From contig JBBHKE010002488.1 of the NCBI GenBank assembly GCA_037447655.1, positions 69,536-133,535 of the forward strand: DNA of 64,000 nt. Reading direction: 5' to 3'. The DNA comes from Zygnema cylindricum. Taxonomy: Eukaryota > Streptophyta > Zygnematophyceae > Zygnematales > Zygnemataceae. How positions within the stretch are numbered: position 1 is the stretch's first letter; the number at the start of each line of letters is the position of its first letter. Shown here in pieces: positions 736-36,319 of this stretch. A model generated the notes under the pieces. The model saw only the letters and a list, made by a program, of their open reading frames with translations, did not search any database and had not been told where the DNA came from. Both the position numbers and the translations under genes were made by a program.

Positions 736-1037
736 TACCTTAGGGGATCTGCCCTATCTTTGTATACACGGAAATATGCGGCAATTTGTGCTATTACATA
801 AATGACACCCGCATATTCTGAATCTCTAGCCATAACTGGCAACCCATAAATTCTTTTCCAAGCCGCGGCGCTAGTAAGTTATGACTCTGCAAGTAACGAA
901 ATTTCACCTGAAATATTTGAGGTCCCTCATCAATTGGTTGTTGCCTCTCGCGCAGCAATTCCAGCTTGATCAGCAATGATAGTCCCTCTAAGGGATTCGG
1001 TATCATTTGTCTTCAATTTATTACGGAAGAGGACTAA
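736..1037. other. Unassigned stretch before Ty3 gag
   Basis: I recognise no gene in these 300 bases. By position this could be leader or 5' gag sequence of the Ty3 element. A minus-strand open frame of 70 codons (794-1006) has no similarity that I recognise. Confidence 0.4.
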
Positions 1038-2010: not shown

Positions 2011-2052
2011 GACACTTATAAGGTCAAAGAACGATTATCCATACTGTCCACT

Positions 2053-2427
2053 ATGCTTCCTGATCTGGTAGTCCACACCAAACCTGTGGATATAACCCAA
2101 TCTCCACATGCATTACAGACTCTCCAAAACCATAAAAACACTCTCTCCCTTCAAGGAATTACGCTTGAAGAGCGTTCTAGTCTCACTCCAGACATCAGTT
2201 TTTTGGATAACAAATTGGGTGTGTTCACGGTCAATGGGGCCGCCCAGGCTTTACCTCTCATGGAGACAAGCGCAAAACCAATCATCTTTGGTTCAGAATT
2301 TGCCATAAAAATAGGTCTTACGGCTGATAAACTACAACCTACCACCACTCGCCTGTTGACTTTTGCAGGTACCACTGAACCGGTCCTCCGTATTACAAAA
2401 CAATTCGTTTGTTTACAGTTTCAATGA
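2053..2427 (+). pseudogene. Ty3-type aspartic protease, active site lost
   Basis: Retropepsin-like domain that would cleave the Gag-Pol polyprotein. The core FTVNGAAQALPLMETSAKP aligns with the family pattern (V-N-G, then hydrophobic residues, then D-T/S-G-A). The catalytic Asp-Thr-Gly reads Glu-Thr-Ser here, so this copy would be inactive. A flap-side segment with IGLTADKL follows, as in plant Gypsy proteases. It sits about 40 bases after the gag knuckle region, in the usual order. Just downstream (2464-2517) a 27-base unit is tandemly duplicated in frame. Confidence 0.7.
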
Positions 2428-2463
2428 AAGTCTGAAACGGACTTTGCAGAAATATACGCTCAC

Positions 2464-2517
2464 GCCTTGGTCACTAAGTGTAGTAATTATGCCTTGGTCC
2501 CTAAGTGTAGTAATTAT
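2464..2517 (+). repeat. 27-bp in-frame tandem duplication
   Basis: The unit beginning GCCTTGGTC occurs at 2464-2490 and again at 2491-2517 with one difference. Twenty-seven bases is nine codons, so the frame was kept. It lies between the protease and the methyltransferase of the Ty3 element. Confidence 0.9.
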
Positions 2518-2569
2518 GAATGCCTAGTCGGCCAAACGTTATTTTCCGAGTGGGGGGGGAGGGGTTGAT

Positions 2570-3714
2570 ATGCATGATCAAACATTTTCGTACAAACCAA
2601 ACAATTTTTTGGAACGCAAAGTGTGCTTACCTCTTTTCTCACCTCGACAACCTATGCCTACTAGAGCTCATTGTGCGCTGATCTTGCAAGCTTATGCGTC
2701 AGTTGGCATAGGCACAGACATTCTCGAATGTACAACCGCAGACGAAATCTCACGCGATCCCATGGGAATACCAAAACTATTCAGCACACTCGGATTTACC
2801 ATTGACTCGTCATATTTTGACCGGCTATATAAATTTACAATACTGATTTGTTTATTTAGTATTCCGAATTCACTCTAAATTACGATGGATCCTTTTGGAG
2901 TTTTGCCCATTAAATGGACACCAGTCAGTTTACAACCTCACCTGAACAGTGTCGTTATCTTAGACCTTTTTGCAAGAATTCGTACTTCACTTCTCGCTTG
3001 CCTTCGGAAAGGTCTTTTAATTAAACATTATTATTTTGTAGACATTGACACTTTGGCTCAACTCGCTCAATTGCACCAGTGTCAAATCTTCCACGAGCAA
3101 TATCCTCACCTCTTGCCTCAATCTGCTTTTCACGACATGCATTCGGCTTTACCACAAGATATCCCTCTAATACGAAATAACCATTTGTTGGAGTAAAAAC
3201 CAATAGATCTCCTCTTTGCCGGATGGGAATGTCAGGAATGTCCAAGGCCGGGAAAGGTTTAGGTCTTGCAGATCCACATACTAAGTTTTTTTCGAGTTGG
3301 TGCGTCTTATCCACTTCTTCCAAAAACTGAACCATCTTTTCGAATACATCTTAGAAAATGTCGCAGCTTATAATGATCCTTGACCCACGGTCGTTGCAGA
3401 TTACAAACGTATTGAATCATTGATTGGACCACCGTTAATAATCGATGTTGCACGCCACGATTGACTGGCCCACCAGTTCGTTCCAAGTGGACTAACCTGG
3501 TGGACATGGGCCGTCTTCAAGAGGCCAACCTTGTTGTTCGGCCACCTAATATTTCCATTCAGAATGCACTTCTCCCATTTCATAAGATCCACACATGCAT
3601 TCATACAGACTATCTTCCTGCTTTTGATCTTAACATACTTGGCCAGCCACTACGTGCACTTCCAACACTGGTCGGATATCCACACTCTTATGCATATTCA
3701 CACAACGGACAACG
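2570..3714 (+). pseudogene. Cytosine-5 DNA methyltransferase, N-terminal and catalytic part, inside a Ty3 element
   Basis: A C5-cytosine DNA methyltransferase domain, which would methylate cytosines in DNA with S-adenosylmethionine. Conserved motifs appear in order across several frames: motif I ILDLFARIRTS (family LDLFAGIGT) near 2957-2990, a VDID acidic loop near 3040, motif IV AGWECQECS (family PCQ) near 3218-3243, motif VI LENVAAYND (family ENV) near 3351-3377, and a motif VIII-like RSKWTN near 3480-3497. A target-recognition-like segment with RPPNISIQN and LPTLVGYPHSYAY follows. The pieces are separated by stops and frameshifts, and motif I has lost its central glycines. The gene stops at 3714 where Copia A(+) inserted, and its C-terminus resumes at 20729. 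It lies between protease and RT, so it belongs to the element. An alternative is a bacterial-type methyltransferase captured separately, but the flanking gag, PR and RT argue against that. Confidence 0.8.
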
Positions 3715-4742
3715 TGTTGAAATTACTATATTTATAAGTTATTTCTAGGTCTAAATAAAACAGTAAAATAAGAAAAAAGAAAAGGGTGGACGACCTGCCT
3801 CTACCTCCTCTCTCTAGCCACCAAACTTCATAAAGTCAATGAAGGATAAAGAGGGTGGTTGAGCCATGGCTGTCTTAGTTCAATAGGCAGGACTAAAGAG
3901 TGACTTATGTCACTCTCAACAAAAAGGTTGAGTCCGGCAAGACTCAAACCTCCAACCAGCAGAGCGAGGCATAGTCGTCTGCTCTAACCGGTCTGTCGTA
4001 GGAGTTCATTAACATACATAGGGTGTGATATTTATTTAAATTGTGTTTTGATCCTAAATCCAATTAACGGAATAACAAATGAAAGAACATAGAACTACGT
4101 AATATATAGTGCGAACATTATCTCGCACGAAACAAATGAATCGGACATTTATTTCGACGGTCAATGTTGAATGTCCGTTTATGATCCGACGGCACAAATC
4201 GCTGCCGAAATCTCGAAATGGTCACCTTGGCGGTTTTCGGACATGGCGTGAGCTAGCGACACATGGAGAGATAACATTCGGTCGCGGGAATTCTGGAGAA
4301 CAGAAGGAGAAGTTAAAAATGGACACGCGTCCACTAAATGGCTTTGTCGTACACATGCCATATAGAAAGTACATCGGTCGTAGTACCTTTCAATACTCTA
4401 CAGTCCTTTGATTGGTACAATCGTTTGATTCGTTCATACATCAGTAGATAGGGGTTCTGAGAGGGGCTTAGGACTTAGAGAATTTGGTTGGTAGGGACCT
4501 CTCTCCCTTAGAGAGTTTTGTATAAACTTGGCATTTTTGCCACTTCATAACTAATCGGCTGGTTGGCCGTTTTTAGTGATTTTTTTTGCTACAAACTCAG
4601 AGAAGTCCAAGATGCACAAGGGTGCATTCATACTGTCAATTTTTCCTCTTGGGCAGCAGTGGCTGTGGCTAAAAGTGGGTTGGTTAAAAGCTATCTAGAA
4701 GCTTCCTAAATTTTAAAGTCCAAAAGAGGACACAGAATTACA
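3715..4742 (+). repeat. 5' LTR of Copia element A(+)
   Basis: A 1028-bp LTR starting TGTTGAAATTAC and ending GAATTACA, directly followed by the primer-binding site. It carries a hairpin GAGTGAC-TTAT-GTCACTC near 3899, an antisense tRNA-like module near 3910-4005 and the shared block CATCAGTAGATAG near 4438. The gag ATG expected 20 bases before the LTR end is AAA in this copy. The 5-bp flank CAACG (3710-3714) pairs with CAAGC at 20729-20733. Confidence 0.9.
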
Positions 4743-4755
4743 GGTTATGGGCCCA
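4743..4755 (+). other. Primer-binding site of A(+), half-tRNA(iMet) type
   Basis: GGTTATGGGCCCA begins right after the LTR. It is complementary to the end of the 5' half of initiator tRNA-Met, the unusual primer described for Drosophila copia and Ty5, rather than to a tRNA 3' end. Confidence 0.8.
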
Positions 4756-5006
4756 CCCTCTAGGGTGCCTATCTTCAATGGATCTGGATTTATCTATTGG
4801 GAAGCCATGATGATGGGGGCTTTGTGCGAAAAACGATACTTGGGTATTTTTAGTGGACAAGTGAAACGTCCACCTCAGGAACTCCACCAGGGTTTGGTGG
4901 AATAAGGTTTTCTGCAGCAACCTCTACAACAGCAGAGGAGGCAGATGATGGGGATAACAGTGTGTCCAAGAAGGGGAAAGAGATGGAGACGCCTCTTACT
5001 CCTATT
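4743..5006 (+). pseudogene. Gag N-terminus of Copia A(+), interrupted by element D
   Basis: Start of the A(+) Gag-Pol frame: QVMGPPSRVPIFNGSGF followed by IYWEAMMMGALCEKRY, the family's conserved Gag N-terminus, then an acidic/Lys-rich linker (KKGKEMETPLTP). The frame has a small shift near 4885-4910. It breaks at 5006 after CCTATT, where the minus-strand element D begins. The same linker continues at 13041 with CTATTACC, giving a CTATT target duplication. Confidence 0.85.
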
Positions 5007-5757
5007 TTTTGTTCTACGACCACCGGTGCAGGTGGAGGAGCAGTAGTAGTAGTAGAAGTAGACATGATACACTCTCACAAGCTATCAAGAATCCTACCAA
5101 ACAACTGTTTTCAAGTGCTCACCAATTCTTACAAAAACATCCAAACTTCTCAAAACTCTATCATAATATAGATTACAACAAACAATGACAAATCCCAAAG
5201 TTTCAACACAATTGACCAGACAACACTCAAGATATAATGCTCAAAAGTTTCCCAAAAATTGTCTGCAGTTTTACTACTTGGAAGTCTGGATACAAGATGT
5301 GTTCTGAGTTCTAAGTCTTATACTTGTGTTGTACTGGCAATACAAGTGTACCTGAGAGGTACGTCACTCTACTAGGCTTATACTAATCTATCAAGCTACC
5401 ACTAAGCTACCACTAAGCTACCACTAAGCTACCACTAAGCTACCACTGAGCTACCACTATGATACCACTGAAATACCCACTAAGTTGAGGTCCGTTAACC
5501 TGATTCATATCAAAAGCAGCTGCTGTGTCGTGTACCGAATCATATCCAATATAGCAGCAGCTGCGTTGTCTGTACGGATCATATCTAAAGTAATCGCAGC
5601 TGCGTTTGTCCTGTCTGTGTCGCAGCTTCGCTGCTGCGCTGCTCTGTCTGCATAGCTGTTGCGCTGCTGTGCTGCTCTGTCTGCATAGCTGTTGCGCTGC
5701 TGCGCTGCTCTGTCTGCATAGCTGTTGCGCTGCTGCGCTGCTCAGTCTACATAGTGT
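5007..5757 (-). repeat. First (outer) LTR copy of element D, minisatellite-rich
   Basis: Minus-strand LTR whose element-sense end, with ATGTCTACTTCTAC (Gag MSTSTTTT) and GTAGAACA, lies at 5010-5067. It lacks the start module (TGTTGTTTTTGTAAAGC) seen at 13040-12954. It is directly abutted by a second LTR copy at 5758. Two minisatellites fill its right half: an 11-bp unit AAGCTACCACT repeated about six times (5393-5458) and a 33-bp CTG-rich unit (5641-5757). Three unexplained T residues (5007-5009) separate it from the CTATT duplication. Confidence 0.75.
5641..5757. repeat. 33-bp CTG/CAG-rich minisatellite
   Basis: GCTCTGTCTGCATAG recurs at 5641, 5674 and 5707, with a diverged copy at 5740, a period of exactly 33 bases. 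On the minus strand 33 bases is 11 codons, which gives an artificial repetitive open frame (SSAAAQQLCRQ). The core GCTGCGCTGCT pairs with AGCAGCGCAGC and could fold as RNA. Confidence 0.9.
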
Positions 5758-6284
5758 TGTTCTACAACCACCGGTGCAGATGGAGGAGCAGCAGTAGTAG
5801 TAGAAGTAGACATGATACACTCTCAGAAGCTATCAAGAATCCTACCAAACAGCTGTTCTTAAGTGCTCACCACTTCTTATATAAGCATCCAAACCTCACA
5901 AAACTCTATCACAATATAGAGTATAATAAACACTGATAACTCCCAAAGTTATAGCACAATTGACCTGACAACACTCAAGATATAATACTCAGAAGTTTCC
6001 CAAAAACTGTCTGCAGTTTTACTACTTGGAAGTCTGGATACATTATATGTTATGAGTCCTAAGTCTTATACTAGTGTTGTACCGGCAATACTAGTGTACT
6101 TCAGAGGTACGTCAAGCTGGCAAGCTAATACTAAGCTACCACTGAGCTAGCAGCTGCTCTGCTGTATAGCAGCTGCGCTGCTGTCTTTTGTATAGCAGCT
6201 GCGCTGCTCTGTCTGTATAGCAGCTGCGCTGCTTTGTCTGTAAAGCAGCTGCGCTGCTCTGAGACTGAAAGCTTTCCAAAAAGA
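5758..6284 (-). repeat. 3' LTR of element D(-)
   Basis: About 527 bp in minus orientation. It ends (plus side) at GAAAGCTTTCCAAAAAGACA, matching the D start module at 12954-13040 (GAAAGCTTTACAAAAACAACA). It includes a 25-bp repeat TAGCAGCTGCGCTGCT at 6168, 6194, 6219 and 6244. A polypurine-like AGCTTTAGGGGAGTAT (minus) lies just inside at 6285-6300. Confidence 0.75.
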
Positions 6285-6449
6285 CAATACTCCCCTAAAG
6301 CTTTAGACTCAGTATACAGGCGTAGCTGCGATGACAAACTAGCGCAGCATCGCAACATAGAAACATAACATTTAGCCAGTCACCCAGTTCCACTACATCT
6401 CAATGGTGGACTTATCGCAGCGTGGCAGTATAGCAGTTCAGCAATTGAA

Positions 6450-7927
6450 CTATTCACTTAATCCCACTGCGTTCCTACAATACCTCAGCTTAGGAGCAGG
6501 AAGAGCTTTAGTGAGCATATCAGCAATCATTTTTGCACCTGGCAAATAACATAATTTAATCACTATAGAGAACACTTTTTCTCTTACAAAGTGTAATCTT
6601 ACATCCATATGCTTGTTTTTGAAGTGATGACTCGGGTTAGATCAATGGCTATGGCAGCCTGGTTATCACACCAGATCACCTGTGGACAACCCTGCATGTA
6701 ACCTAGTTCTTGTAACATGGATTTTACCCATAAGAGTTCTTTGAGGGCCGAGCTTGCCGCCATATATTCTGACTCCATTGTTGTTTGTGCTGTCACCTTT
6801 TGAAGTTTGCTGCTCCAGCAGCAAGTACTGTTCCCAATTTGTAGAACGAATCTCGTGGTGGATTTCCGGCTAGGCATGTCGCCATAGCTTGCATCACTCT
6901 ACGTTTGTAGTTTTACTTCTCCTCCGCCTAGTGTAAGTTTGAGGTCTTTGGTTCCGGCCAAATATCTTAAGACTCTCCTTGCTGCATCAAAGTCAGATTT
7001 TCTCGGATTCTCTAGATTTCTGCTCAGTACCTCGAATGCTGCAGCAATGTCTGGAAGGGTACAATTCATGAAATATATTAAGCTTCCCACTATCTGTCTG
7101 TAAGGTATTTGTGTCATAGAATCATTCTCCCCTGATTCTAAATACTTGCTTTCAATGACACCTGGTTATGTCTCTTCTCCCTATAACTTTTGCCGAAACT
7201 CCATTGGAGTTAGACATCCTTTTGCCCCCCGCATTCCGTACTCATCTAACATGTTTCCAATAGCCTTCTTTTGAGTCAATTTTATTTCTTTTTTATTTTT
7301 GTCCCTCTCTACCTAGATACCCAAAATATATTTTGCCTCACCGAGGTGTTTCATCTCGAACCGTGAGTTTAGAGCAGTTTTGATTTTGTTAATTTCAGCC
7401 ATTGATTTGCTAATTAATAGTAAATCATCTACATACACCGCTATATACACTATCCCATTTTCACCCTTTAGAACGTAAACAGAGTGATCAAAACGTATCC
7501 TTTAAAATCCTAGGCTAGTAATAATTCATCAAGCTTCAGATTCCATTGTCAGGGGCCTATTTTAGGCCGTAGAGAGATTATAACAACTTGCATACTAAGT
7601 GCTCTTTTCCTGGTTCCACATACTTTTCAGGTTGCTGCATGTAAATGGTCTTTTCCAGTTCTCCGTGCAAAAAGGCCATCTTTACATCCATCTGATGTAT
7701 TTCCATATCTTCTATAACAGCTAAGGACATCAAAATCCTAACTGTCGGAAATCTAACAACCGGAGAAAATGTTTCTTCAAAATCAATTCCTTCCTTTTGA
7801 TTATACCCCTTTGCCACAAGTTTGGCCTTATGACGTTCAATGGTGTTGTCGCGACTTAACTTCACCTTAAATACCTATTTGCTGCCGATTCCTTTTCGGT
7901 CCGGAGGAAGGTCCACAAGCTCCCATG
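6450..7927 (-). pseudogene. Copia RT-RNase H of element D(-)
   Basis: C-terminal half of a Copia Pol. Minus-strand pieces read in order: WELVDLPPDRK and the RT start with LVAKGYNQKEGIDFEETFSPVV (7578-7927), KMAFLHGELEKTIYMQQPE, a YRQIVGSLIYFMN block (6899-7117), then RNase H with WCDNQAAIAI (6599-6877) and a terminal KMIADMLTKALPAPKLRYC ending at stop 6450. Numerous stops and shifts separate the pieces. Similarity to C (ALPAPKLKYC, MSTSTTT Gag start) places D as a relative of C. The gag, protease and integrase of D are missing: coding stops at 7927 at an inserted LTR piece. Confidence 0.85.
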
Positions 7928-8258
7928 TGTTGAAATTAAAGGTATTTTCTAGGTTATTTAAGTAAGTTAAATAGGAGGAGGAAAAGGCAGAGGCAGCCTT
8001 CTTCTAACTTCTCTCTCTAGCCCTCATACTTGTCGTAGTCACTGAAGGCAGGAGAGGAAGCTAAAGCCATGGCTGCCTATGCTTCTTTTTGTCAAAAGGC
8101 AGATCATTGGTAAACTTACCAAAAGGATTGACAAACCCAGGATTTGATCCCGGTACCTACCGACCGTTAATCTAGCCGTTAGTCTTAACCTATAGTCTAA
8201 GACCTGTGCTGAAGTATATAGGGTACGATAGCTACTTAAAGATAACAAAATAGAGAAT
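7928..8258 (+). repeat. E-like LTR 5' fragment
   Basis: Starts TGTTGAAATTAAAGG and follows the first ~330 bases of LTR E (GCCATGGCTG, GGTACCTACC, TAGGGTACGATAG, AGAGAATTC). It is cut at AGAGAATTC and joined to the minus-strand RT of A2(-) at 8259. The two partners share short identity around GAATTC/GAACTG, so this looks like a deletion or repair junction rather than a normal element end. Confidence 0.75.
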
Positions 8259-11200
8259 TCATAAAATATATTAAACTTCGTACGACCTGTCTATAAGGGA
8301 TAGTCTTCATAAACTCTCTCTCTTCTGTACTCATTTGATCATCTAAGATCATCACTCCTCCTTCTACACTCCCATCACTTACTTTTTTCAAGTCCATGGG
8401 AGTGGTACAACTGTTAGCATTTTCCATCTGGAATTTCTCAAGCATATTACCTATTGCTTCTTTCTGAGTATGTCTGATAATCTTCTTCCCCCTATCTCTC
8501 TCCATTTGAATCCCCAAAATATATTTTGCCTCACCTAAATCCTTCATATCAAATCTGCTTCTAAGATTTGTTTTTAACTTTTTGATCTTTTCCAAGGATT
8601 TACTTAACATAAGCAGATCATCCACATAAATTGCAATAAAAATGACACCATTCTCATCTTCAAACATATAGATAGAATGGTCAGAGATGATACGGATATA
8701 TCCTAGACTGGTAAGAAACTCATCTAGTTTCTTATTCCAATGACGGGGAGTTTGCTTCAGTCCATATAAGGACTTTATGAGCCTGCAGACTTTGCTCTCT
8801 TCTCCTTCTTCCACGAACCCCTCCGGTTGTCTCATGAAAATTTCTTCCTCTAACTCACCATTAAGAAACGCAGTCTTAATGTCCATCTGGTGGATTTCCA
8901 TGTCTTCCGCTGCTGCCTGGCTGAGGAGAATCCTTACTGATGGGAATCGATCAACTGGAGCAAAGGTCTCCTCATAGTCAATCCCCTCCTTTTGGGTGAA
9001 ACCCTTTGCTACCAATCGAGCCTTATATCTTTGAATGGTATTATCAGGGTTCAGTTTTAGTTTAAATACCCATTTATACCCAATAGGTTTTTTGTCTGGA
9101 GGACAATCTGCTAGTTCCCAAGAATTTGCTTCCATGATAGAAGCCATCTCATCATTTATAGCTCTAATCCATCTCTCTTTCTCTGGACTATTCACTGCCT
9201 CCGATTAAGACTGAGGCTCATCAGGGTGAGATAGCTTAGTTACCTTATGAGCGGCTTGTTTTTCCTGTAATCTTTTGCTGCTCCTCCTTCCTCCCTCAAA
9301 CTCTGAAGCAAGAATGGATGGAAGTCTTGCATTTCTTCTCATTGTCTTATCGGCTCCCCTGTCCATGGAAACCGGTTCTTGTCTTGCTGCTTCAATCTCC
9401 TCAAAGTCCATAGGAGTATGTGAGGTTCGCGGTGAGTCTCCTATATCTTAGATCTCTTCTGAATCTCAAATCACGGTTTCACCCATGTCCCTTTCGGGAA
9501 CGACCGAGTTCTCCTCACTTTCGGACTCAAATCTGATCCTTATCTTCTTTGTATATTTGAAGGGGTCAAATGACTTCCCTTCATCCATGACAACTAAGTG
9601 TTTGACTAGAATGATATCTTTCTTTGCTAAGTCATAGGCTCTATATCCCTTAACATCCTCATCATATCCCAGAAAGTATCCAGGTTTTCCCTTAGCATCT
9701 AGTTTCCAGTTTTTCCTATCCGTGTCAAGACTGTAAACTAGGCTACCAAATACTTTAAGGTGTGAGATATCTGGTTTCCTTCCAACCCATCTCTCATAAG
9801 GTGTCACTCCCTTTACAGCTGAGGTAAGGACGCTATTCTTAATGTAGTTGGCACAATTCATTACTTTTGCCCAAAATATCTTTCCTATTTTCTTGTCGGC
9901 CAACATACTACGTACACTATCTCCTAGTGTTCGATTCAACCTCTTACCTACCCCATTTTGTTCTGGGTTATATGGTACAGTTTTTTGGTGCTGCACTCCC
10001 TCATCTCTCAGATATTCCTCAAACTCGTTAGAAGTATATTCCCTCCCATTATCACTCCTTATCCTCTTAATGGGGGTTTAATGCAACTTCTCACACCAAG
10101 CTTTATATTCTTTGAAGTAAGTCGATGCTTCAGACTTTGTTTTCAGAAAGTAGACTCTAGAGTATCTAGACCTATCATCAGTTATTGTCATCATAAACCT
10201 CTTTCCTCCAACCGAAGGTACTTTTGCAGGTCCCCAAATATGTGTGTGGACCAAATCTAACACTTACTCACCTCTATATGTGGCGGCTTTGGGAAAGGGA
10301 AGTCTGTGAGCCTTACCTTGAGCACAACCACTTAAATCATCCATCATTTCATTATCCCCAAACTAAATGCCATCTACTACCCCAAGCTTTTTCATTTCCC
10401 TCAACCTATCAAAATGCACATGCCCCAACCGCTTATGCCAAATCATCACCTTAGGAACACCAACATAGTAAGCATTCTTCTTTTTATTACTCAGGTTAAG
10501 CCTAAACATTCCTTGGCTACCCTTACCTGCTGTGAAGTAAACTTCATCCCCATACTTAGCTGTAAAGACTCCCTTTCTAGTGAAGGTATCAAACTCTTTG
10601 TCATCCAACACAGACGTAGAGACAAGATTTTTACTCAGCTGAGGAATGTAAAGTACATCTGAGAATGTAAGTATAGAAGTGTTACCCTCCACTAAGACTT
10701 TCATATCTACTGATCCCACTAGATCTGTATTAACCACTCTCCCATCCCTATACTTTATCTCTTCAGTAGGAATCTTTCTTAACTTAGTGAAGAGTTCTAT
10801 ATCACGACACATATGCATGGATGCACTTGAGTCAATGATCCATCGTTCCTGTGGAGCTTCCCAGATTGCTCCAAAGGCACACTTCTGCCTCCGATGAATC
10901 TCCTTCTCCTCAAAACTCTCGTCAAGAAGAAGCTCCCCATCCTCCTCAGAGGACTCATCCTCGGTTTCTCCTGACACTTTTGTAACCACAAGTGCCTTTT
11001 TCTTCCCTCTGGAAGAACCCCCTCCACGGTTCTCTAGTAGCCTCAGCTCTGATAGCTTGACACAATCTGCAATAAAGTGTCCCGGCTTTTTGCAATAATG
11101 ACAAAGACCCTTTGGGGGCCTTTGTCCCCCAGAATGATCTCTTTCCCCTCTATATGGTTTCTTCGGGTCCTTCCTCCATCGGTCCCCTCCTGCTGCTAGA

Positions 11201-11956
11201 GCTTGAATGCTCTTTCCTCCTCTCCTAATCTCCATTGTGTTTTCCTGCACAAGTATCATCCTGACTACTGTGTTCCATTTCCATGAACTATCACGCATTC
11301 CCTGTACTCGGTACACTATGTTTTCGAACTCATCTGGTAATTTCATGATAAGGGTGTTAACTTTCATTTTCATTGTACGTGTCTACCCGGCACTTTCAAT
11401 TTCCATATACAAACAAGAAAGATCATTACAGTAATCTAATATCTTTCCTCCTTTGTAAGTGTAACTCACTAGTTTTTGCTCAGCCAACTGGAGCTCCTGA
11501 ATAGTTCCAACTCTATAAATCTCCACCAAACTCACCCACAACTCCTCGGCCTTGTATATGTGAAGTTGAGGAGTGGCCAAACCTTGAGTGAGGTGCCTCA
11601 GAATGAAGTTCTTGGCAGCCATGTTTACATCCTCCCACATCTGAGTATCGTTCTCCACGGTCTTCGCGGTCGCCGCTCCCGATACTGTGGCAATAGGAGT
11701 GAGGGGTGTCTCCTTTTCTTTCCCTTTTTCGGACACACTGCTGTCCCCATCATCTGCCTCCTCCGTTGAGGCAGCCATTGTTGCAGAAAACCTTACTCCC
11801 CCAAATCCTGGTGGAGTTCCCGAAGGTGGACGTTTCACTTGTCCACTGACGATACCCTAGTATCGTTTTTCACACAAAGCTCCCATCATCATGGCTTCCC
11901 AATAGATGAACCCAGATCCATTGAAGGTGGGCACCCTAGAGGGTGGGCCCATAACT
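8259..11956 (-). pseudogene. Nearly full Copia Gag-Pol, element A2(-), RNase H missing
   Basis: Minus-strand polyprotein of family A, readable from gag to RT with about ten stops or shifts. Gag: QVMGPPSRVPTFNGSGF, then a dimer/capsid-like region with NFILRHLTQ and YKGGKILDYCNDLS, and a zinc knuckle CHYCKKPGHFIADC near 11060-11105. Protease: WIIDSSASMHMC (DSGAS changed to DSSAS) near 10830. Integrase: WHKRLGHVHFDRL and a SGCAQGK motif in which the first Cys of CSGC appears lost, plus DLVHTHIWGP (first Asp altered to His-flanked form) and GKRLNRTLGD. RT: 319-codon open frame at 8236-9195 with LVAKGFTQKEGIDYEETFAP and YVDDLLMLSKS. It ends at YRQVVRSLIYFMN at the 8258/8259 junction, so RNase H and the 3' LTR are deleted. 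Confidence 0.9.
11944..11956 (-). other. Primer-binding site of A2(-)
   Basis: On the minus strand AGTTATGGGCCCA follows the LTR end GAATTGCA. One transition from the GGTTATGGGCCCA consensus. Confidence 0.75.
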
Positions 11957-12953
11957 TGCAATTCTGTGTCCTCCATTCGACCACAGAATACAGGAAGCCT
12001 CTAGATAGTATTTAACTAGCCCACTTGAAGCCACAACCACTGCTGTCCAAGAAGGCAAACAGACAATTTGACTGCACCCTTGTGTAGCATGGACTCCCCT
12101 GAGTCTGTAGCAAAAAGAATCACTGAAAACGGCCAACCAGCCGATAAGTTATGAGCCGGCAAAAATGCCAATTTATACAAAGCTCTCTTAGAAAGAGAGG
12201 TGTCAAAATTTCCTAAGTCCTAAATCTCTCTCACAACCCCCATCTACTAAAGTACGAATCAATCATATTACTGTAAACTACACAAAGGTACTACGGCCGA
12301 TGTCCTCTCTGTACGGCCGGTGTAAGACAAGGCTACTGAGTGGACGCGTGTCATTTTTCCACTCGTTCGTATATTCTCCGGAATTTTCGCGACCGAATGT
12401 CATCCTTCCACGCGGCGCCACGTCATGCCACGTCCATAAAATCCAAAGTGACCATTCCGCGATCTCGGCGATGACGTGCGCCATCGGATTAAATGCGACA
12501 TTAAATGTCGACTGTTTAAACAAATGTCTGTTTCATTTGTTTCGTGCGAAATGACGTTCGCACTAAACCTTAACAAGTTCTATGTTCGTTTTGTCCATAT
12601 TACAGTTAAATCATTTCAGTATAATACAGTAGATTAAATATGAATGAAACCTTATATCATCTAACGGACTTCTACAACAGATTGGTTAGAGCTAACGGCT
12701 ACGCCGCGCTCTACCGGTCGGGGGTTCGAGTCCTGCCGGACTTAACCTTTTTTTGAGAGTGACTTAAGTCAATCTTTAGTCCTTTCTATAGAGCTGAGGG
12801 AGCCATGGCTCCATCGCTCTCTCTCTCCTTCAGTGACTACAACAAGTATGGGGGAAAGAGAGAAGAGATGGAGGCAGGCTGCCATCATTTTCTATATATG
12901 TTTCCGCTAGTTTATTTTAGACCTAGAAAATACAAAAACTACTTATTTTAACA
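11957..12953 (-). repeat. 5' LTR of A2(-)
   Basis: A 997-bp LTR; minus sequence starts TGTTAAAATAAG and ends GAATTGCA. It keeps the Gag start ATGGAGGACACAG 20 bases before its end. It contains the clearest tRNA-like module of the window (12683-12754). It was inserted into the beginning of the D 5' LTR, which resumes at 12954. Confidence 0.88.
12683..12754 (+). promoter_or_regulatory. tRNA-like Pol III module antisense within LTR A
   Basis: Box A-like TGGTTAGAGCTAACGG at 12683-12698, a perfect box B GGTTCGAGTCC at 12723-12733, then a run of seven T at about 12748-12754, the usual Pol III terminator. The module is antisense to the element's own transcription. No complete cloverleaf can be drawn by eye, so this is not called a tRNA gene. 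Confidence 0.65.
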
Positions 12954-13040
12954 GTGATGACGCATATCCTTACGCTACAAATTACTACCTTTGTGCCGTC
13001 CTACTAATTTGCTGAGAGTGAAAGCTTTACAAAAACAACA
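12954..13040 (-). repeat. Start of the 5' LTR of element D(-)
   Basis: Minus sequence begins TGTTGTTTTTGTAAAGC at 13040 and continues to 12954, where A2(-) was inserted. It matches the end of the D 3' LTR at 6255-6284. CTATT (13041-13045) follows and equals the CTATT at 5002-5006, giving both edges of D. Confidence 0.75.
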
Positions 13041-16000
13041 CTATTACCACGGCACCCGGAGCGGCGACCGTGAAGACCGCGGAGAATGACACCCAAACGT
13101 GGGAAGACATCAACATGGCTACCAAAAACTTCATTCTAAGACACCTCACTCAGACTTTGGCAACCCTTCACCTTCACATTTAAAAGGCCGAGGAGTTGTG
13201 GGTAAGTTTGGTGGAAATTTATAGAGGTGGTACTATTTAGGAGCTCTAGTTGGCCGAACAAAGGTTAGGGAATTATACTTACAAAGTGGGAAAGATGTTA
13301 GACTATTGTTATGTTCTCTCTTGTTTGTATATGGAGATGAAGAGTGTCGGGTGGACAGGTACAATAAAGATGAAAGTTAACACTCTCACCATGAAGTTAC
13401 TCGACGAGTATGAAAACATAGCGTACCGGGTACAGGAAATGATTGATAGTTCATGGAAATGGAACAGAGTGGTCCGGATGATACTTGTGCAGGATAACAC
13501 AATTGAGATTAGGAGGGGGGGGGAGAGCATCCAAGCTCTAGCTGCAGAAGGAAATCGATATGGGGAGGATCTGAAGAAAACATTCAAAGGAGAGAGAGAT
13601 CAGTCTGGAGGACCGAGGCCCCCAAAGGGTCTTTGTCACTTTTGCAAAAAGTCGTGACACTTCATGGCGGATTGTGTGAAGTTGTCGGAGTAGAGGCTCC
13701 GAGAGAACCGTGGAGGGGGTTCTTCCGGAGGATAGAAAAAGGCACTTGTGGTCACAAAAGTGAGAGGAGAGACCGACGAAAAGTCGTTTGAGGAGGAGGA
13801 TGAGGAGCTTCTTCTTAACGAGAGTCTGGAGAAGAAAGAGATCCCTCGGAAACAGAAGTGTGCTCTCGGAGAAATTCGGGAAGCTCCACAAGAAGGATGG
13901 ATTATTGACTCAGGTGCATCCATGCATATGTGTCGTGATAAGCACCTCTTTACTAATCTAAGGAAAATCCCTACTGTAGAGAAAGACTATCGCAATGGGA
14001 GAGAGGTTTCAACAGATCTAGTGCGGTCGGAGTTCTGAAAGTCTTAGTGGAGGGAAAGACGTATATACTCACCTTTTCAGATGTACTCTACTTTCATCAG
14101 CTGAGTAAAAATCTTGTCTTTACGTTTGTGTTAGATGACAAAGAGTTTGATACCTTCACTAGAAATGGAGTCTTTACAGCTAAGTATGGGGATGTCTACT
14201 TCACGGCAGATAACGGTAGCTAAGAAATGTTTAGGCTTAACTTGAGTTATGAAAAAAACAATGCTTACTATGTTGGTGTTCCAAAGTTGATGATTTGGCA
14301 TAAACAATTGAGGCATGTGCATTTTGATAGGTTAAGGGAAATGAAAAAGCTTGGTGTATTAAAAGACATTTAGTTTGGGGAAAATAAAATGATAGATGAT
14401 TGTAGTGGCTGTGCTCAAGGTAAGGCTCACATACTTCCTTTTCCCAAAGCCGCCACATATACAGGTGAGAAAGAACTAGATTTGGTCCACATAGATATTT
14501 GGGGACCTTCAAAAGTACCTTCGGTCGGAGGGAAGTAGTTTATGATGACAATAACTGATAACTGGTCTAGATACTCTAGAGTTTACTTCCTCAAAACAAA
14601 GTCAGAAACATCAACTTACTTAAATGAATATAAATCCGGGAGTGAGAAGTTGCATGGAACCCACATTAAGAGAATAAAGAGTGATAATAGGGGGGAATAT
14701 ACCTCTAGACAGTTTGAGGAATACTTGAAAGATGAGGGACTTCAGCACCAAAAAAACCGTACCATATAACACGCAACAAAATGGGGTAGCTGAGAGGTTG
14801 AACCAAACACTAGGAGATAGTGCATGCAGTATGTTGGGTGACAAGAAAATAGAAAAGAGAATTTGGGCAGAAGCCATAAACTGTGCCAACTACATTAACA
14901 ACAAAGTCCTTACCTCAGCAGTAAAGGGAATGACACCCTATGAGAGATGGGTTGGAAGGAAACCAAATATCTCTCACCTTAAAGTATTCGGTAGCGAAGT
15001 TTACAGTCTTGACACGGATAGGAAAAACTGGAAACTAGATGCTAAGGGAACACCATGATGCTTTCTAGGATATGATGAGGATGTCAAAGGATATAGAGTC
15101 TATGGCTTAACAAAGAGAGATATAATTTTGGTCAAGCACCTAGTTGTCATGGATAAAGGGAAGTCATTTGACCCTTTCAAATATACAAAGAAGATAAGAA
15201 TCAGATTTGAGTCCGAAGGTGAGGAGGACTCCATATTTCCCAAAAAAAGACATGAGTGAAACAAGGATTACAGATTCAAAGGAGATCTAAGATACAGCAG
15301 ATCCATCGGAAACCTCATATATTCCTATAGACTTCGAGGAGACAAAAAAGGAGGATTCAGAACCGGCTTCCAAGGATAGGGGAGTCGATGAGACAGTAAG
15401 GAGAAACCCAAGACTTCCCTCCCATCCTATCTTTGGAGTTTGAGAGAGGGAGAAGGTGTAGCAAAAGATTACAAGAAAAACATGCCGCTCACAAGGTAAC
15501 TAAGCTATCTCACCCAGATGAGCCTCATTCATACTTGGAGGCGGTGAACAGTACGGAGAAAGACAAATGGATTAGAGCCATAAATGATGAGATGGCCTCC
15601 ATCATGGAAGCAAATACTTGGGAATTAGTAGACTGTTCTCCGGACAGAAAACGGATTGGTTGTAAATGGGTGTTCAAACTAAAACTAAACCGAGATAATA
15701 CCATTAACAGATATAAGGCTCGATTGGTAGCAAAGGGGTTCTCCCAAAAGGAGGGGATTGACTATGAGGAGACCTTTTTTCTAGTTATTCTGTTCCCATC
15801 AATAAGGATTCTCCTCAGTCTGGCAGCAGCGGAAGACATAGAAATACACCAGATGGATATTAAGACTCCCTTTCTTAATGGTGAGTTAGAGGAAAAAATA
15901 TTCATGAGGCAACACGAGGGGTTCGTGGAGGAAGGAGAAAAGAGCAAAGTCTGCTGGCTCATAAATCCTTATATAGACTGAAGCAAGCTCCGCGACAGTG

Positions 16001-16632
16001 GAATAAGAAACTAGAAGAGTTTCTCACCGGTCTGGGATATATCTTGATCATCTCTGACCATTCTATCTATATGTTTGAAGATGAGAATGGTGTTATTATT
16101 ATTGCAATTTATGTTGATGATCTGCTTGTGTTAAGTAAGTCTTTGGAAAAGATCAATAAGCCAAAGAAAGATCTTAGAAGCACATGTGATATGAAGGATT
16201 TAGGTGAGGCAAGATTTATTTTGGGGATCTAAATGGAGAGAGATAGGGGGTAAAGGATTATCAGACTTACTCAAAAACAAACAATAGGTAATATGCTTGA
16301 TAAATTCCAGATGGAAAAGGCTAACAATTGTACTACTCCCATGGACTTGAAAAAAATAAGTGATGGATGTGTAGAAGGAGGAGTGATGATCTTAGATGAT
16401 CAGATGAGTCCAGAGGAGAGAGAGTTTATGAAGTCTATCCCTTATAGACAAGTCGTAGGAAGATTGATCTATTTTATGAACTGTAAAATGCCGGACATAG
16501 CAGCAGTAAGAGTCCTTAGTAGGAGTCTTCACGATCCTAGGAAGAGAGATTAGAGGCAACCAAGAGAGTCATGAGATATGTGGTAGAAACTTGAGAGTTA
16601 TCGTTGCATTTGGGAAGGGAGCACACTGATAT
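13041..16632 (+). pseudogene. Copia Gag-Pol of A(+), gag through RT
   Basis: Continuation of A(+) after the D insertion: gag (ENDTQTWEDINMATKNFILRHLTQ), knuckle CHFCKKS ending in a stop near 13655, protease WIIDSGASMHMCRDKHLF near 13898 with intact DSGAS, integrase (HKQLRHVHFDRL, CSGCAQGKAH near 14400, DLVHIDIWGP near 14478, SDNRGEYTS, GVAERLNQTLGD near 14785), then RT (15433-15981, LVAKGFSQKEGIDYEETFF; YVDDLLVLSKS near 16112; IPYRQVVGRLIYFMN near 16438). More than ten stops and shifts are present. The frame breaks at 16632 inside HTDI, where solo LTR E inserted, and resumes at 17869 with WSDASYGDA. Confidence 0.9.
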
Positions 16633-17868
16633 TGTTGAAATTTATGCATTTTCTAGGTCTGTATTGGAAAAAGAAATAGAGTAAGTCAGCAAAGGTAGCC
16701 TGCTTCTAGATCAACTCTCTCCAGTCCCCATACTTGTTGCAATCACTGAAGACCAGAGAGAGAGCTAGAGCCATGGCTGTCTATAGAGGATAGGCTAATT
16801 CGTAGTTTGTACCAAAAGAGGACTGCCAGACTCAAGATTTTATCCTGGTACCTACCATCTTTAATAGTCGTTAGCTTTAGCCTATAGCTTAGAGTCAACG
16901 ATGAAATGCGTAGGGTACAATAGGTATTTATAAATGTACAAGTAGAGAATTCTAAACAACTAACAAATAACTAAATGCTCCTCTAAATTAGATGTGAACC
17001 AAGGTCTATAGAAATATAAATAGTGGTATACCTTATCCAATAAGGCATTAACGAAACGATACACGTGACGGGTTTCAAAGAAAAATAAACATTAACGTGA
17101 CAGCTAATTAACACTAGACTAACGAAGAGGAATAATTCATGCATCTACGCGAATTTGAATCGTGTAAAATATGTTTTGATCGAACGGTCGGCATTGTAGC
17201 CGCCACGCGAAGTGAGATTTTGGCGGCATTCGGAGATAGCATCACGCGGTGCCATGTGGCGTCACATTATTTGATACCGGAGAAGATGGGAGGAGGAACC
17301 ATGGCTCCCGATTTGCTAGGTGTCACCTTGTAGACCATGTCGTACAATGGCCGTACAATAAGTACATCTCCCATTGAACCTTCTTGTACTATATAGTGTT
17401 CTTATTAGACTAGGATTTAGTAGTAGGTAGTCGTGAGTAGGCAAACCAAGACTTAGTGATATTTAGGTACCTCTCTCTAAGAGAGCTTGTAACTATAAAG
17501 GTCATCTTTGACCAGCCATAACTTAATGCTCGGGTGAGCAAATTTAGTGATTCTTTTTGCTGCGGACTCAGCGAAGTCCAAGCTACACACGGATTTAGTT
17601 AGTTAGAGTCTTTACTTGCCGAGGTGGCACTTATTCAGTGGGAAAGTCAAATTGGGGAATATTGTCCAAAACACATATTCAAGCTTTGCATTCTGTGGTG
17701 GAACTGAGCACACAGAAGGTCTTCTCTTCACAGGGGTGAAGGTGTATTGGGGTTCTAATTGTCATGGGATCATTCATTTGGGTTTATATACTCTTGGAGT
17801 AGGCACTATCTAGATTAGCTTCTTTTGGATCTGCAAATTCTGTGGGCAATGGAGCCAATAAAATTTCA
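16633..17868 (+). repeat. Solo LTR, family E, copy 1
   Basis: A 1236-bp LTR from TGTTGAAATTTATGC to ATTTCA, without internal region. Flanks GATAT (16628-16632) and AATAT (17869-17873) are a 5-bp duplication with one change. It contains GCCATGGCTG, the block GTAGTAGGTAGTCGTGAG, and near its end ATGGAGCCAATAAAATTTCA, the same Gag-start arrangement as families A and B. Same length as the minus-strand copy at 36320-37555. Confidence 0.93.
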
Positions 17869-18361
17869 AATATCAATAATTGGAGTGATGCAAGTTATGG
17901 GGATGCACCGATGAGATGATGCACTTATGGGTATGTCTTGTATGTAGGGGAAGGTGCTTGCTGTTAGAGCAGTAAGCAACAAAAGGTGGTTGCTCAGTCC
18001 ACTATAGAGGCTGAGTATATGGCCTCTTATTCTGCTTTGAAAGAGTTGATGCGAGTCAAGTCCTTGTTGCAAGAACTCGGGTATATCAAGAAGGGAGTGC
18101 ATGAAGTATTAAGTGATAATAAAGCTGCTATTGCAATTGCAGCTAATCGAAAACATCATTTCAAAGCTAAACATATGGACATAAGATTGATTTTTGTGAG
18201 AGAAAAAGTTGAAAATAAGATTATGAATCTTTTTTGTAGATCGGATGAGGAAATGGTGGCTGATATGACAACAAAACTAGTGCTTTTTCCCAAGTTAAAA
18301 TATTGTTGAGAAAAGTGTGGACTAAAACTGAAGTTAAAGTTAGACTAGAAAATAAGGGGAG
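17869..18361 (+). pseudogene. Copia RNase H of A(+)
   Basis: RNase H domain that would remove template RNA during reverse transcription. Motifs in order: WSDASYGDA (first acidic residue) near 17880, CTYGYVLYVGEGAC, VVAQSTIEAEYMA with the conserved Glu at 17986-18020, a Ser-for-Cys SDNKAAIAIAANRKHHFKAKHMDIRL, and MVADMTTKLVLFPKLKYC. A stop replaces Trp in the CCWSSK block (TGTTAGAGC near 17962). The polypurine tract AAAATAAGGGGAGTG follows and leads into the 3' LTR at 18362. Confidence 0.9.
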
Positions 18362-18504
18362 TGTTGAAATTACTAGATTTATATGGTATTTTGTAGGTCT
18401 AAATAGATTAGTAAAATAAAAAAAAGGGCGGACAGCCAGCCTCCTCCTCCTATCTCTAGTCACCATACTTGTTGTAGTCACTGAAGGATAGAGATGGTGG
18501 TTGA
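18362..18504 (+). repeat. 3' LTR of A(+), left part
   Basis: Starts TGTTGAAATTACTAG just after the polypurine tract and matches 3715 onward. It breaks at GGTGGTTGA, where solo LTR F inserted, and continues at 19894 with GCCATGGCTG. Confidence 0.9.
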
Positions 18505-19888
18505 TGTTGTTCTTTGGTCTAAAATAGACCGTAGAAGCCACCCAAACTATCATGCAAACAGCTAAGCAAAGTTAGGCCAATGAACAATCATATTAAAATG
18601 TGCACCCTCCCAATGCGTACACAGACGCACCAAAATGCATACTCAGATGCATCAACAATCCGTACACAGACGGAACAAAATGCATACATAGATGCATTAA
18701 ACAACAACTAGGATTTCATGGAATAATAAACATAAATAAACCCTATGACAACAACTAAGGTTTGATGGAATAATCAACATAAACAAACCTTAGGACAAAT
18801 GCATTAACAATGCATAACAAACAAGCATATAAATAATAACACATGAATTCACCACACATAAACAAATGTATAATCAAATAATCAATTTATCACTCAAAGT
18901 GCATGACCTAATCGACAACCCTAAAATACTACATCTTTGGTCCCCACTTTACTAACCAGCATTGATGATTCATTCTTAACAAAGCTCATTCCTATATATA
19001 CACTTGTGAGCTGTCAACGAATCACTAAGTGTCAAAATAACCAACATACATTACGTAACTGTCATCAAGTCCTATTTAACCATAATAGACCATCACTAAG
19101 AATAAATTAATTGTAAGCGTACACCTGAAAGTCAAGCAATCGTAAGCGTACACTTGTCTGCAAATACGACACATAAAGACACATAAATTAAACTGTCGAA
19201 ACCCTAAATGATCACGTAAATAAAACATGTTATAATCAACACTAATTTATAATACACATAAGACAAACCAATGATATTCCGAATATTTACAGGTACACAA
19301 AATCTTATGCTGAGTCATGGCGAATAAATCAGCAGGACTTTGCGAATCTCGTCAAAGCATCCGGGACGTCCAAAAATAAATATCGTGTGATTGACGCGAT
19401 TTCGCGTCACCACTACTTGAAAATAACGGCGGCCTTTGGCCGCCGTCCGTCACTCTTTTTGTCACCCTCGATGTTGCGCCACGTGGCCCCAAAGTCCAGT
19501 TGACGAAACCACGTCAAACCATCCGAAATTGTCCGTACTGCAATTTTGTTCCTCGTCATAAATGCGCCTGCCAAAAATAAGTACACCTGTCCCAAAAAGA
19601 TTTTATGTACCGGCGGCGTCATTTTCCATATATCCCACCTGTCGCATTATGTTCTTTACGTGCGACGTACCATTTCATCTTCGTCGATTATCTCACGTTG
19701 GATCGCTTCGCGATCCGCCGTCCATTTCCTATCACATTTCGCGCCACTCAATTACTTCATTAATTTTACTCGTACATTTAATTCCTCAATCCGCAAATCC
19801 TTTCGAACCTCCACAATAATTCCAATAATTACGTGCGCACACAAATACGCGCACGCATGTACGAAACTGAATGTTCTTAAAAACAACA
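18505..19888 (+). repeat. Solo LTR, family F
   Basis: A 1384-bp insertion with 7-bp inverted ends TGTTGTT...AACAACA and a perfect 5-bp duplication GTTGA (18500-18504 and 19889-19893). No coding capacity was recognised, so a solo LTR is the simplest reading; orientation is arbitrary. Its left third holds degenerate repeats with GTACACAGACG/GATGCATCAA and an AACAACTA(A)GG-ATGGAATAAT motif given twice. Its right part has two palindromes at 19392-19409 and 19426-19446. It is unlike the other LTRs here. Confidence 0.85.
19392..19446. other. Paired palindromes in LTR F
   Basis: TGACGCGA-TT-TCGCGTCA (19392-19409) and ACGGCGGCC-TTT-GGCCGCCGT (19426-19446) are perfect inverted repeats 16 bases apart. 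Both are GC-rich in an AT-rich LTR. The region could act as a protein-binding site or form an RNA hairpin; neither is shown by the sequence. Confidence 0.8.
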
Positions 19889-19893
19889 GTTGA

Positions 19894-20728
19894 GCCATGG
19901 CTGTCCTTCTTCAACAGGCAGGACTAAAGAGTGACTTATGTCACTCTCAACAAAAAAATTGAGTTCGGCAAGACTCGAACCTCCGACCGGCAGAGCGATG
20001 GGTGGCCGTCAGCTCCAACCAGTCTGTCGTAGGAGTTCGTTAACATAAATAGGGTCTGATATTTATTTAAACTGTGTTTTGACCCTGAATCCGATTAACG
20101 AAATAATAAATGAAAGAACATTGAACAAGGTGATATATAGTCTAAACATTATCTCGCAAAAAACAAATGAATCGGACATTTGTTTCGACGGCCAATGTTG
20201 AATGTCGGTTTATGATCCGACGGCACATATCACTACCAAAATATCAGAATGGTCACCTTGGCGGTTTTCAAACGTGGCGTGACATGGTGACACGTGGAGA
20301 AATAATATTCGGTCGCCGAAATTCCGGAGACGTGTCCACTCAATGGCCTTGTCGTACACACGCCGTATAAAAAGTACATCGGCCGTAGTACCTTTTTGTA
20401 CTCTAGAGTCGTTTGATTGGTTCGTACATCAGTAGATAGGGGTTGTGAGAAAGGCTTAGGACTAAGAGAATTTGGTCGGTAAGGACCTCTCTCCCTTAAA
20501 GAGTTTTGTATAAACTTGGTATTTTTGCCACTTCATAACTAATCGGTTCGTTGGCCGTTTTCAGTGATATTTTTTGCTACGGACTCAGAGGAGGTCAGGC
20601 CACTTAATGGTGCATTCAAACTGTCAATTTGTCCTCTTGGGCAGCATGGTTGTGGCTGAAAGTGGGTTAGTTAAAAGCTATATAGAGATTCATAAATTCT
20701 GTAGTCGATTGGAGGACACAGAATTGTA
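19894..20728 (+). repeat. 3' LTR of A(+), right part
   Basis: Continuation after LTR F; it matches 3864-4742. It ends GAATTGTA, two transitions from GAATTACA. The Gag ATG is TTG here. The next five bases CAAGC are the target duplication of the whole A(+) element. Left and right parts together total about 980 bp. Confidence 0.88.
19951..20022 (-). promoter_or_regulatory. tRNA-like Pol III module, LTR A(+)
   Basis: On the minus strand: box A-like TGGTTGGAGCTGACGG (20022-20007), box B GGTTCGAGTCT (19981-19971) and a seven-T run (19958-19952). This is the same order and spacing as at 12683-12754, again antisense to the element. Confidence 0.6.
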
Positions 20729-20979
20729 CAAGCATGCTGCAGAATACACATAGAGGCACCTTAGAAGAACCTACTGGTGCAAAACGAGAACACTTTTTAC
20801 ATTTCATTTCGGGCACCACTGCCGCTTCGAGACTCACTCAGCGGCAACGCCGCACCTTACTTGGTCGTGTCATGGATCCCAAATCACTGTCATTTGTCTT
20901 GGGCATGGGGTTTGCAGGCCGTCGATGCGCACAAAACTATCCGTCTCAATTAGCTAGGGGGGGGGCATACACTATTTAA
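20729..20979 (+). pseudogene. C-terminus of the Ty3-borne DNA methyltransferase
   Basis: Resumption of the gene broken at 3714. The open frame from ATG 20734 reads MLQNTHRGTLEEP, then EHFLHFISGTTAASRL, then QRRTLLGRVMDP near 20845-20880. LEEP...R E...L.FISGTT resembles the region before motif IX-X of C5 methyltransferases, and LLGRVMD resembles motif X (LLGNAV/M). Joining at CAAGC/CAACG restores an HNGQ context with a one-base shift. The stretch ends in a nine-G tract at 20957-20965 and a stop. Confidence 0.7.
20956..20965 (+). other. Internal polypurine tract of the Ty3 element
   Basis: GCTAGGGGGGGGG here resembles GCTAGTAGGGGGGGAA at the element's 3' end (56339-56348). It could be a central plus-strand primer or only a G homopolymer. 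Confidence 0.35.
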
Positions 20980-21192: not shown

Positions 21193-22074
21193 TTGCATCA
21201 TGCAGTAAACTATTTCCATCAGCTCCTAGTCGAGTACGAGTTGGGGTATTTTTTGATAGCAAACGAACAACATGTATTTGTACGAGCTACGGAAGCCATG
21301 ACCATTAGCACGCTCAAAAAACCGCCATGGAAATTCGGAACAGGACTAACAAAAATTGAACATGAACTCTTAAGTGGAGTCATAAACCGACATATAGACA
21401 AGTTCGCTTTCTCCATGAAAGATTTAGGTCAACCCACCACTTACACAATGTCTATCGACCTAGAGGATGACCGACCCATAATTCAAACCCAAGCATCGTC
21501 TATCGGAAACTCAATGGGAATCGGTCGGCAAACGATGTGTAGAACTTAAAGAGGCAGGTGTGATTTATAGGTTCGACTCCACCTTCGCGGCTTCTACCGT
21601 GATGCTTCGTAAAAAAAATGCAGAGGGGAATTATACAAAACGTTGCACGTGCGGAGACTATCGAGAACTAAATTCACTTACAATCCAGGACCGATATCCA
21701 ATGCATTTGGTGGAGGACATTTTTGATCTTGTCGGAGGAGCTAAATATTTCAACATCCTAGATCTGCGACAAGGTTTAATCAAATCGAAATAGAGGAAAA
21801 GGACCGACAAAAGACTGCATTTTGGGGAAGTGACGGACCTTGGGAATGGGTAGTTATGCCATTTGGCCTGAAAAATGCATCAACTGTATTACACAAAGTC
21901 ATACACTCGGTCTTAGAGGGACGTTAGTTTGCCCGTTGTTATATCGACGATTTAATCATCGCTTCAGCCACTATAGAAGAACATGCAGTGCATAAAGTGG
22001 GTGTTGAAGGAATTAAAAAAGGTAGGAGTTAAATGTCATCGTGCCAAATGCACCTTCGAGGCCGAAGGGGTACC
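21193..22074 (+). pseudogene. Ty3/Gypsy reverse transcriptase, truncated
   Basis: RT domain of the outer element. The pre-RT segment has FAFSMKDLGQP and SIDLEDDRPI (21400-21480). RT motifs then follow: LKEAGVIYRFDSTFAASTVMLRKK (21548-21620), CGDYRELNSLTIQDRYPMHLVEDIFD (21653-21728), KYFNILDLRQG, KTAFWG, MPFGLKNAS (21857-21885) and catalytic CYIDDLIIAS (21938-21967) with the YxDD-type Asp pair retained. At least four stops or shifts. It ends at CTFEAEG, 22074, where element A(-) inserted (flank GTACC). No RNase H was found on the far side, where integrase resumes at 54824, so a deletion is inferred. Confidence 0.9.
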
Positions 22075-23051: not shown

Positions 23052-23054
23052 CTC

Positions 23055-24876: not shown

Positions 24877-24881
24877 TCCCC

Positions 24882-31337: not shown

Positions 31338-31342
31338 TCCCC

Positions 31343-32418: not shown

Positions 32419-32423
32419 CATAT

Positions 32424-33420: not shown

Positions 33421-33429
33421 CTTCCCTAA

Positions 33430-36314: not shown

Positions 36315-36319
36315 GCATC

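Follow-up and report, generated by a model that had tools for sequence, protein, structure and literature searches.

The window analyzed here is a stretch of 64,000 nucleotides from the alga Zygnema cylindricum (GenBank assembly GCA_037447655.1, contig JBBHKE010002488.1, positions 69,536 to 133,535). Judged by its sequence, it holds one dead Ty3/Gypsy-type retrotransposon copy in which a DNMT3-like cytosine methyltransferase (MTase) lies between protease and reverse transcriptase (RT). The copy spans approximately 680-57,685 and is broken by stops, by frame changes and by two blocks of nested Copia, whose borders were mapped with the open frame of a sister copy (L009) and with a full-length copy (C1344); the parts are listed in Table 1. 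The first-pass annotation of this DNA had confined the element to 2570..20979, an extent that did not hold. It had also read MTase motifs I, IV, VI, VIII and X in order, and these are present in that order, spread over three frames with stops; motif IV is indeed there, but it reads GWECQECP rather than the GWECQECS first given. The three window pieces lie at similar distances from the C1344 copy (0.21, 0.19 and 0.18 substitutions per site), as expected for one element cut by later Copia insertions. Window positions 734-3710 are 80.5% identical to that copy (blastn), and the window copy's own repeats B1 and B2 are 0.095 apart (Kimura two-parameter distance). Approximately 800 bases of the element (the end of RT, and RNase H) were not found in the window.

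With the window motifs divided over three frames containing stops, no single piece reached the C5 MTase family in Pfam. When the pieces were joined, with X at stops, PF00145 was matched at E=0.024 with 14.5 bits, where the cut-off is 22, and the best solved relative was DNMT3A (E=0.024). For the same joined pieces, a search of 5.8 billion sequences returned the metagenomic PF00145 protein P0001 (E=1.7e-26, 43% identity over 149 aligned positions), a match far beyond chance. Pfam gave no match for the window's gag and protease pieces or for the tested pieces of the RT 5′ part. Open sister copies elsewhere in the assembly do exceed the PF00145 cut-off (44.4 bits for L009, 41.2 for L011 and 44.2 for L012), so the C5 MTase match that the first-pass annotation had called for is significant there.

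The assembly comprises 352,776,454 bases in 2689 contigs, and all copy counts given here are lower bounds. A PF00145 profile search of it returned at least 123 scored matches of 782 candidates, from which eighteen stretches of 9.9 kb were taken first. L009 has one open frame of 2395 amino acids in the order gag-protease-MTase-RT-RNase H-integrase-PHD finger; MTase, RT, RNase H, integrase and PHD finger are above their Pfam cut-offs, and zinc knuckle and protease below. The protease match was below cut-off in the three frames scanned, or absent (L012). The Ty3/Gypsy order of protease, RT, RNase H and DDE integrase holds in the L009 and L012 frames, and MTase and RT share single open frames on several contigs. 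The placement of a C5 MTase between protease and RT of a Ty3/Gypsy polyprotein, proposed from the window alone, is thereby supported, and copies with these domains in one open frame, which the first-pass annotation had suggested looking for, do exist. The open copies form two families, A (L009, L010, L011) and B (L012, L013), whose MTases are approximately 42% identical.

Searching the assembly with the L009 RT gave at least 149 match rows, none of them below 79% identity (148 scored, out of 3595 candidates). An MTase row lies at most 4 kb upstream in 24 of the best 46 RT rows, and direct reading of 21 of the remaining 22 (L040-L060) revealed MTase sequence in 20, partial only in L042, L046, L049, L052 and L057. 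Among these best 46 rows, 44 of the 45 examined therefore carry MTase sequence upstream of RT, and Ty3 copies lacking the domain at this site, which the first-pass annotation had named as grounds for rejection, did not overturn its claim. That this is a multicopy Ty3/Gypsy family bearing an MTase we regard as virtually certain. The ratio of nonsynonymous to synonymous substitution rates (dN/dS) is well below 1 in usable pairs, with a median of 0.242 for the MTase (0.118-0.340; 11 of 55 pairs usable) and 0.130 for RT (5 of 66 pairs usable). Both sets used family A queries, mix rows of both families and hold open copies only, which biases them towards constraint.

Ranked by sequence alone, the element MTases are nearer DNMT3 than DRM, DNMT1/CMT, DNMT2 or bacterial enzymes. 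Family B scores DNMT3A at 2.5e-13, HhaI at 1.7e-5 and DRM2 at 1.5e-3; family A scores DNMT3A at 7.9e-11, HhaI at 1.7e-3 and DNMT2 at 0.18, and no DNMT1 row appeared up to E=1 for the MTase domain of either family. Motifs I, IV, VI, VIII and X follow the canonical order in rows covering them, unlike the permuted DRM, and the catalytic Cys, motif VI (ENV/ENI/ENM) and the motif VIII Arg are kept in rows covering them. Pro-Cys at motif IV is the usual rule for C5 MTases. It is present in 9/9 family B rows, with Glu-Cys in 12/12 family A rows and in P0001, giving a family signature of GWECQ (A) versus GWPCQ (B); most open family A copies read GWECQGMS. Either Glu-Cys or Pro-Cys occurs at motif IV among A, B, P0001 and P0007-P0018, in every case preceded by GW or GS. 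In an MTase tree whose outside set was one DNMT3A fragment and five other C5 MTases, A, B and P0001 fall together (98/95), with P0001 beside A (93/89); a wider tree places A with P0001, P0007 and P0014 (100/99) and leaves the deeper forks open. The RT tree separates A and B as the MTase tree does, with one long branch (L022).

Among the first eight-plus-eighteen MTase loci, two are not element MTases. One is a piece of a host DRM-type gene on the minus strand (L026 4765-5910, contig C2414), with permuted order and a DRM match at E=2e-73. The other is a host MTase exon on the plus strand (L007 1501-1749, contig C514) matching the 4fsx and 7ubu chains, named DNA methyltransferase 1, at E~8.8e-28 and closest to the 4fsx group of plant enzymes; 4fsx is the maize chromomethylase ZMET2. 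The host most likely has plant-type methylation enzymes of its own, as these two matches suggest. The element MTase is near DNMT3A and far from DRM2, while the host frame matches DRM strongly, and DRM is described as restricted to streptophytes (PMC12344493), by which the host is most likely a streptophyte alga. The RuBisCO large-chain family had 0 matches in the assembly.

A PHD finger follows the integrase in the family A polyprotein, above the Pfam cut-off in L009. It matches those of PHF12, KDM5/Lid, BAZ2B, PHF21A and ATXR5, which are readers of unmodified H3K4. It is possible, if tentative on these matches, that the element PHD finger reads unmodified H3K4 as well, and it would add a possible aiming part to a methylation writer. 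At the level of titles and the start of abstracts, with most subscription papers outside reach, the literature searched gave no report of a PHD-bearing MTase Gypsy element. A PHD finger has been described in the Ginger transposase, a relative of the Gypsy integrase (PMC2836005).

The three full-length family A copies (C1344, C1915, C829) all have their repeats arranged as A1-coding-B1-A2-B2, so that A stands at the 5′ end and B-A-B at the 3′ end, and not two whole direct long terminal repeats (LTRs); these are split direct repeats of the kind by which DIRS elements are recognized. The same copies start with TGTC and finish with GACA (TG..CA ends), and all three are flanked on both sides by 4-bp target duplications (ttgg, ccct and aagg). 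A1 and A2 are 99.5-100% identical, which marks the insertions as young. B1 is preceded by a G-tract, and the B1/A2 junction reads ..GACA GC TGTC... The A2/B2 joint brings the last base of A, beside the primer site, up against B's first base, next to the G-tract, and in all three copies this joint equals the two ends of the complementary DNA (cDNA) exactly. In 5/5 copies with four different sequences (A1 of C1848 being incomplete in the stretch read), 15-22 of the 31 nucleotides at the A1 border are perfectly complementary to a stretch in mid-A, whereas 300 random interior 31-mers per copy give complements of at most 10-12 nucleotides. Family B has the same B-GC-A joint and a 15-nucleotide complement. 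Up to E=1, no phage-integrase (tyrosine recombinase) family was among the matches in L009 and L012, where the rve integrase was found. At C544 114000-136000 (L033, L012, L034), a family B copy lies with an inverted A-B remnant and the flanking tetramers gaac and agct are exchanged, which resembles the state after an inversion or recombination between two inverted nearby copies.

These ends suggest a life cycle in which the RNA's own 5′ part would prime minus-strand synthesis, a step that the border complement makes likely. Self-primed but otherwise ordinary reverse transcription would yield [B-A]-coding-[B-A], and joining of the cDNA ends (end of A, start of B) would close a circle. The DDE integrase would then open the circle at the palindromic B-GC-A joint and insert it, giving A-coding-B-A-B with TG..CA ends. 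This model accounts for every junction in the three family A copies, and the encoded DDE integrase suffices for it; we consider opening of a circle by that enzyme somewhat probable. The MTase, for which activity in open copies has slightly better than even odds, could methylate the cDNA, the circle or the insertion site while still part of Pol. The PHD finger could dock the integrase on nucleosomes that lack H3K4 methylation, and new copies would then land, already marked, in quiet chromatin. The roles given to MTase and PHD finger are those of their families.

We put the probability of an MTase-bearing family with the terminal mechanism in outline at approximately 0.7. Several observations weigh against it or against its extensions. 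One of the 45 RT copies examined (L055) shows no MTase in the 1.2 kb read, and the family B PHD finger reaches 21.5 bits, below the Pfam cut-off of 24. The two family B copies examined are without matching flank tetramers and without a second A-B, and the circle is deduced from junctions, no circle having been observed. CpG has been lost only mildly from the window copy, which retains 143 of the 299 CG found in the C1344 copy, versus 208 of 330 GC, and depletion is stronger in the Copia blocks than in the Gypsy parts. The CpG data support a methylation role weakly at best. Family A has Glu in place of the usual Pro before the catalytic Cys. This last point, shared by P0001 and further relatives, favors the idea that the domain is kept for a non-catalytic job such as nucleic acid binding or polyprotein folding and no longer methylates, most plausibly in the Glu-Cys family. 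The Gypsy-Dnmt3 domain of Klebsormidium nitens and one LINE Dnmt produced no methylation in yeast, a result that the authors of that work call inconclusive (PMC5890265). Retention of the catalytic Cys, of ENV/ENI/ENM and of the motif VIII Arg, together with Pro-Cys in family B, argues for a working enzyme, and we consider loss of catalysis unlikely.

The split repeats might also have arisen without a circle, for example if copies recombined with each other or if two linear cDNAs were fused end to end and then integrated. The exchanged tetramers at C544 are evidence that recombination between inverted copies occurs. Chance recombination would not give joints that equal the cDNA ends exactly together with matching 4-bp flanks, as seen in C1344, C1915 and C829, and origin without a circle seems to us improbable. 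A further possibility is that the MTase is no part of the element but a host gene, or some unrelated fragment, which chance or misassembly has placed next to retrotransposon remains; the window copy, broken and split, would by itself have left room for this. The single open frames on several contigs, the 44 of 45 RT copies and the joined protease end and MTase of P0007, a protein from another source, reduce its likelihood to almost nothing. Chance motifs, a host gene beside debris and misassembly were all dropped as candidates, the last two being in effect refuted by the open copies. The fullest version of the preferred reading would be a large and old streptophyte-algal Gypsy group with a working Glu-Cys methylation writer and a histone reader, self-primed cDNA, a circle opened at a repeat-internal palindrome by the DDE integrase, and copies pre-methylated in chosen chromatin; taken whole, this is a speculative picture and rather unlikely to be right in every part.

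Relatives of the element MTases were found beyond this assembly. A profile of six of them matched 25 proteins at E up to 1e-5 (8000 candidates scored), of which fourteen (P0001, P0007-P0019) are set off by E values of 2.5e-13 or lower, the remainder starting from 1.2e-9. Two of the fourteen bear Closterium names (P0010, Closterium sp. NIES-53; P0016, NIES-54), NIES-53 being a zygnematophycean, and by these matches relatives occur in Closterium and in metagenomes. Residues 1-476 of P0007 align with residues 763-1219 of L009 (40%, E=4e-102); the protease end thus runs into the MTase in P0007 as well, for which Pfam reports the MTase only. In P0018, a JGI metagenome protein, a GWPCQ MTase (E=1e-20) comes after a stretch that blastp aligns with the RNase H end of L012 (E=2e-15). 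This RNase H was found by blastp against L009 and L012 and not by Pfam, and P0018 appears to represent a different domain order of the same MTase family. Viral contigs searched with P0001 gave no match, and no K. nitens sequence was named among the protein-search hits for the element MTases.

Table 1. Parts of the retrotransposon copy and its interruptions in the window.
Feature	Position	Strand	Basis or remark
Gag and protease part, broken	682..2559	+	tblastn of L009 frame residues 196-809, 64.6%
Zinc-knuckle stretch	1465-2007	+	inside gag/protease part
Protease-like stretch	~2011-2424	+	inside gag/protease part
DNMT3-like MTase, N-terminal and middle part (motifs I, IV, VI, VIII)	2945..3709	+	three frames with stops
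Nested Copia block inside MTase	3711..20731	.	element stops at 3710, picks up again at 20732
Copia RT (PF07727)	8239-9204	minus	Pfam; long open piece
MTase C-terminal end (motif X-like LLGRVMD)	20734..20940	+	mapped with L009 and C1344
RT 5′ part	21476..22075	+	tblastn of L009 frame residues 1443-1643, 56%
Second nested Copia block	22076..54820	.	Copia domains at 46912-48261
Integrase and C-terminal end	54820..56323	+	84-85% to L009 residues 1909-2394
PHD finger	~56153-56281	+	PF00628, 24.6 bits (cut-off 24)
G-tract, polypurine-tract-like, before B1	56340..56346	+	
Repeat B1	56344..56587	+	
Repeat A2	56592..57446	+	
Repeat B2, 3′ end of element (..GCACGACA)	57445..57685	+	

Both nested blocks are dense in Copia sequence on both strands, with several long open pieces. 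A tandem array of approximately 33-bp units (CTGTCTGCATAGCTGTTGCGCTGCTGCGCTGCT-like) occupies window positions 5611-5775. Open pieces on the minus strand at 59727-61796 resemble a plastid divinyl reductase, a resemblance unconfirmed by Pfam, which gave no match for the pieces tested. Three host-like frames had no Pfam match, and Rfam had none on the whole window.

Elements that carry an MTase invert the common view, in which silencing is imposed on the element by its host, and the open, near-identical copies present here are numerous enough for a study of the enzyme's part in the life cycle. The first-pass annotation's statement that MTase-bearing retrotransposons have been reported in algae proved to be right: KnitGypsy-Dnmt3 of K. 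nitens, described by de Mendoza et al. in 2018, is likewise an intronless LTR Gypsy element whose Pol frame includes a Dnmt3-related MTase and whose repeats are DIRS-like while its domains are those of Gypsy (PMC5890265). An MTase-bearing Gypsy element with DIRS-like repeats was thus already known, to which the Zygnema elements add the PHD finger and the construction of their repeats. Low substitution ratios are common to both (Ka/Ks <0.2 in KnitGypsy-Dnmt3, median 0.24 here), more copies are present here, and 'PHD' occurs 0 times in the main text of that paper (PMC5890265). By description, the two are also set apart by the TG..CA ends, the target duplications and the self-complementary primer site of the Zygnema elements. 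The published case notes the DIRS-like repeats (PMC5890265), for which the ends analyzed here give a testable account in a DDE-integrase Gypsy element. Antiviral roles have been speculated upon (PMC6338049), and DNMT3 in 'LTR Copia and DIRS' elements is mentioned with a citation of the same K. nitens work (PMC12344493).

In Symbiodinium, SymbioDIRS-Dnmt3 and SymbioLINE-Dnmt also hold an MTase inside a retrotransposon polyprotein, but the former uses a tyrosine recombinase and the latter an endonuclease in place of the DDE integrase found here; two domain orders are reported among the Symbiodinium DIRS elements, a variation like that of P0018 (PMC5890265). Compared with chromoviruses, which are Gypsy elements with a chromodomain after the integrase (PMC3605345), the present elements have a PHD finger instead, an added MTase and split repeats. 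Split repeats are shared with DIRS elements generally, with an rve integrase and 4-bp duplications here instead of a tyrosine recombinase and no duplication. Tf1 of fission yeast primes itself from the 5′ part of its own RNA through an 11-nucleotide complement. Self-priming would therefore be common to Tf1 and the Zygnema elements, in which the complement is 15-22 nucleotides long and the repeats are split.

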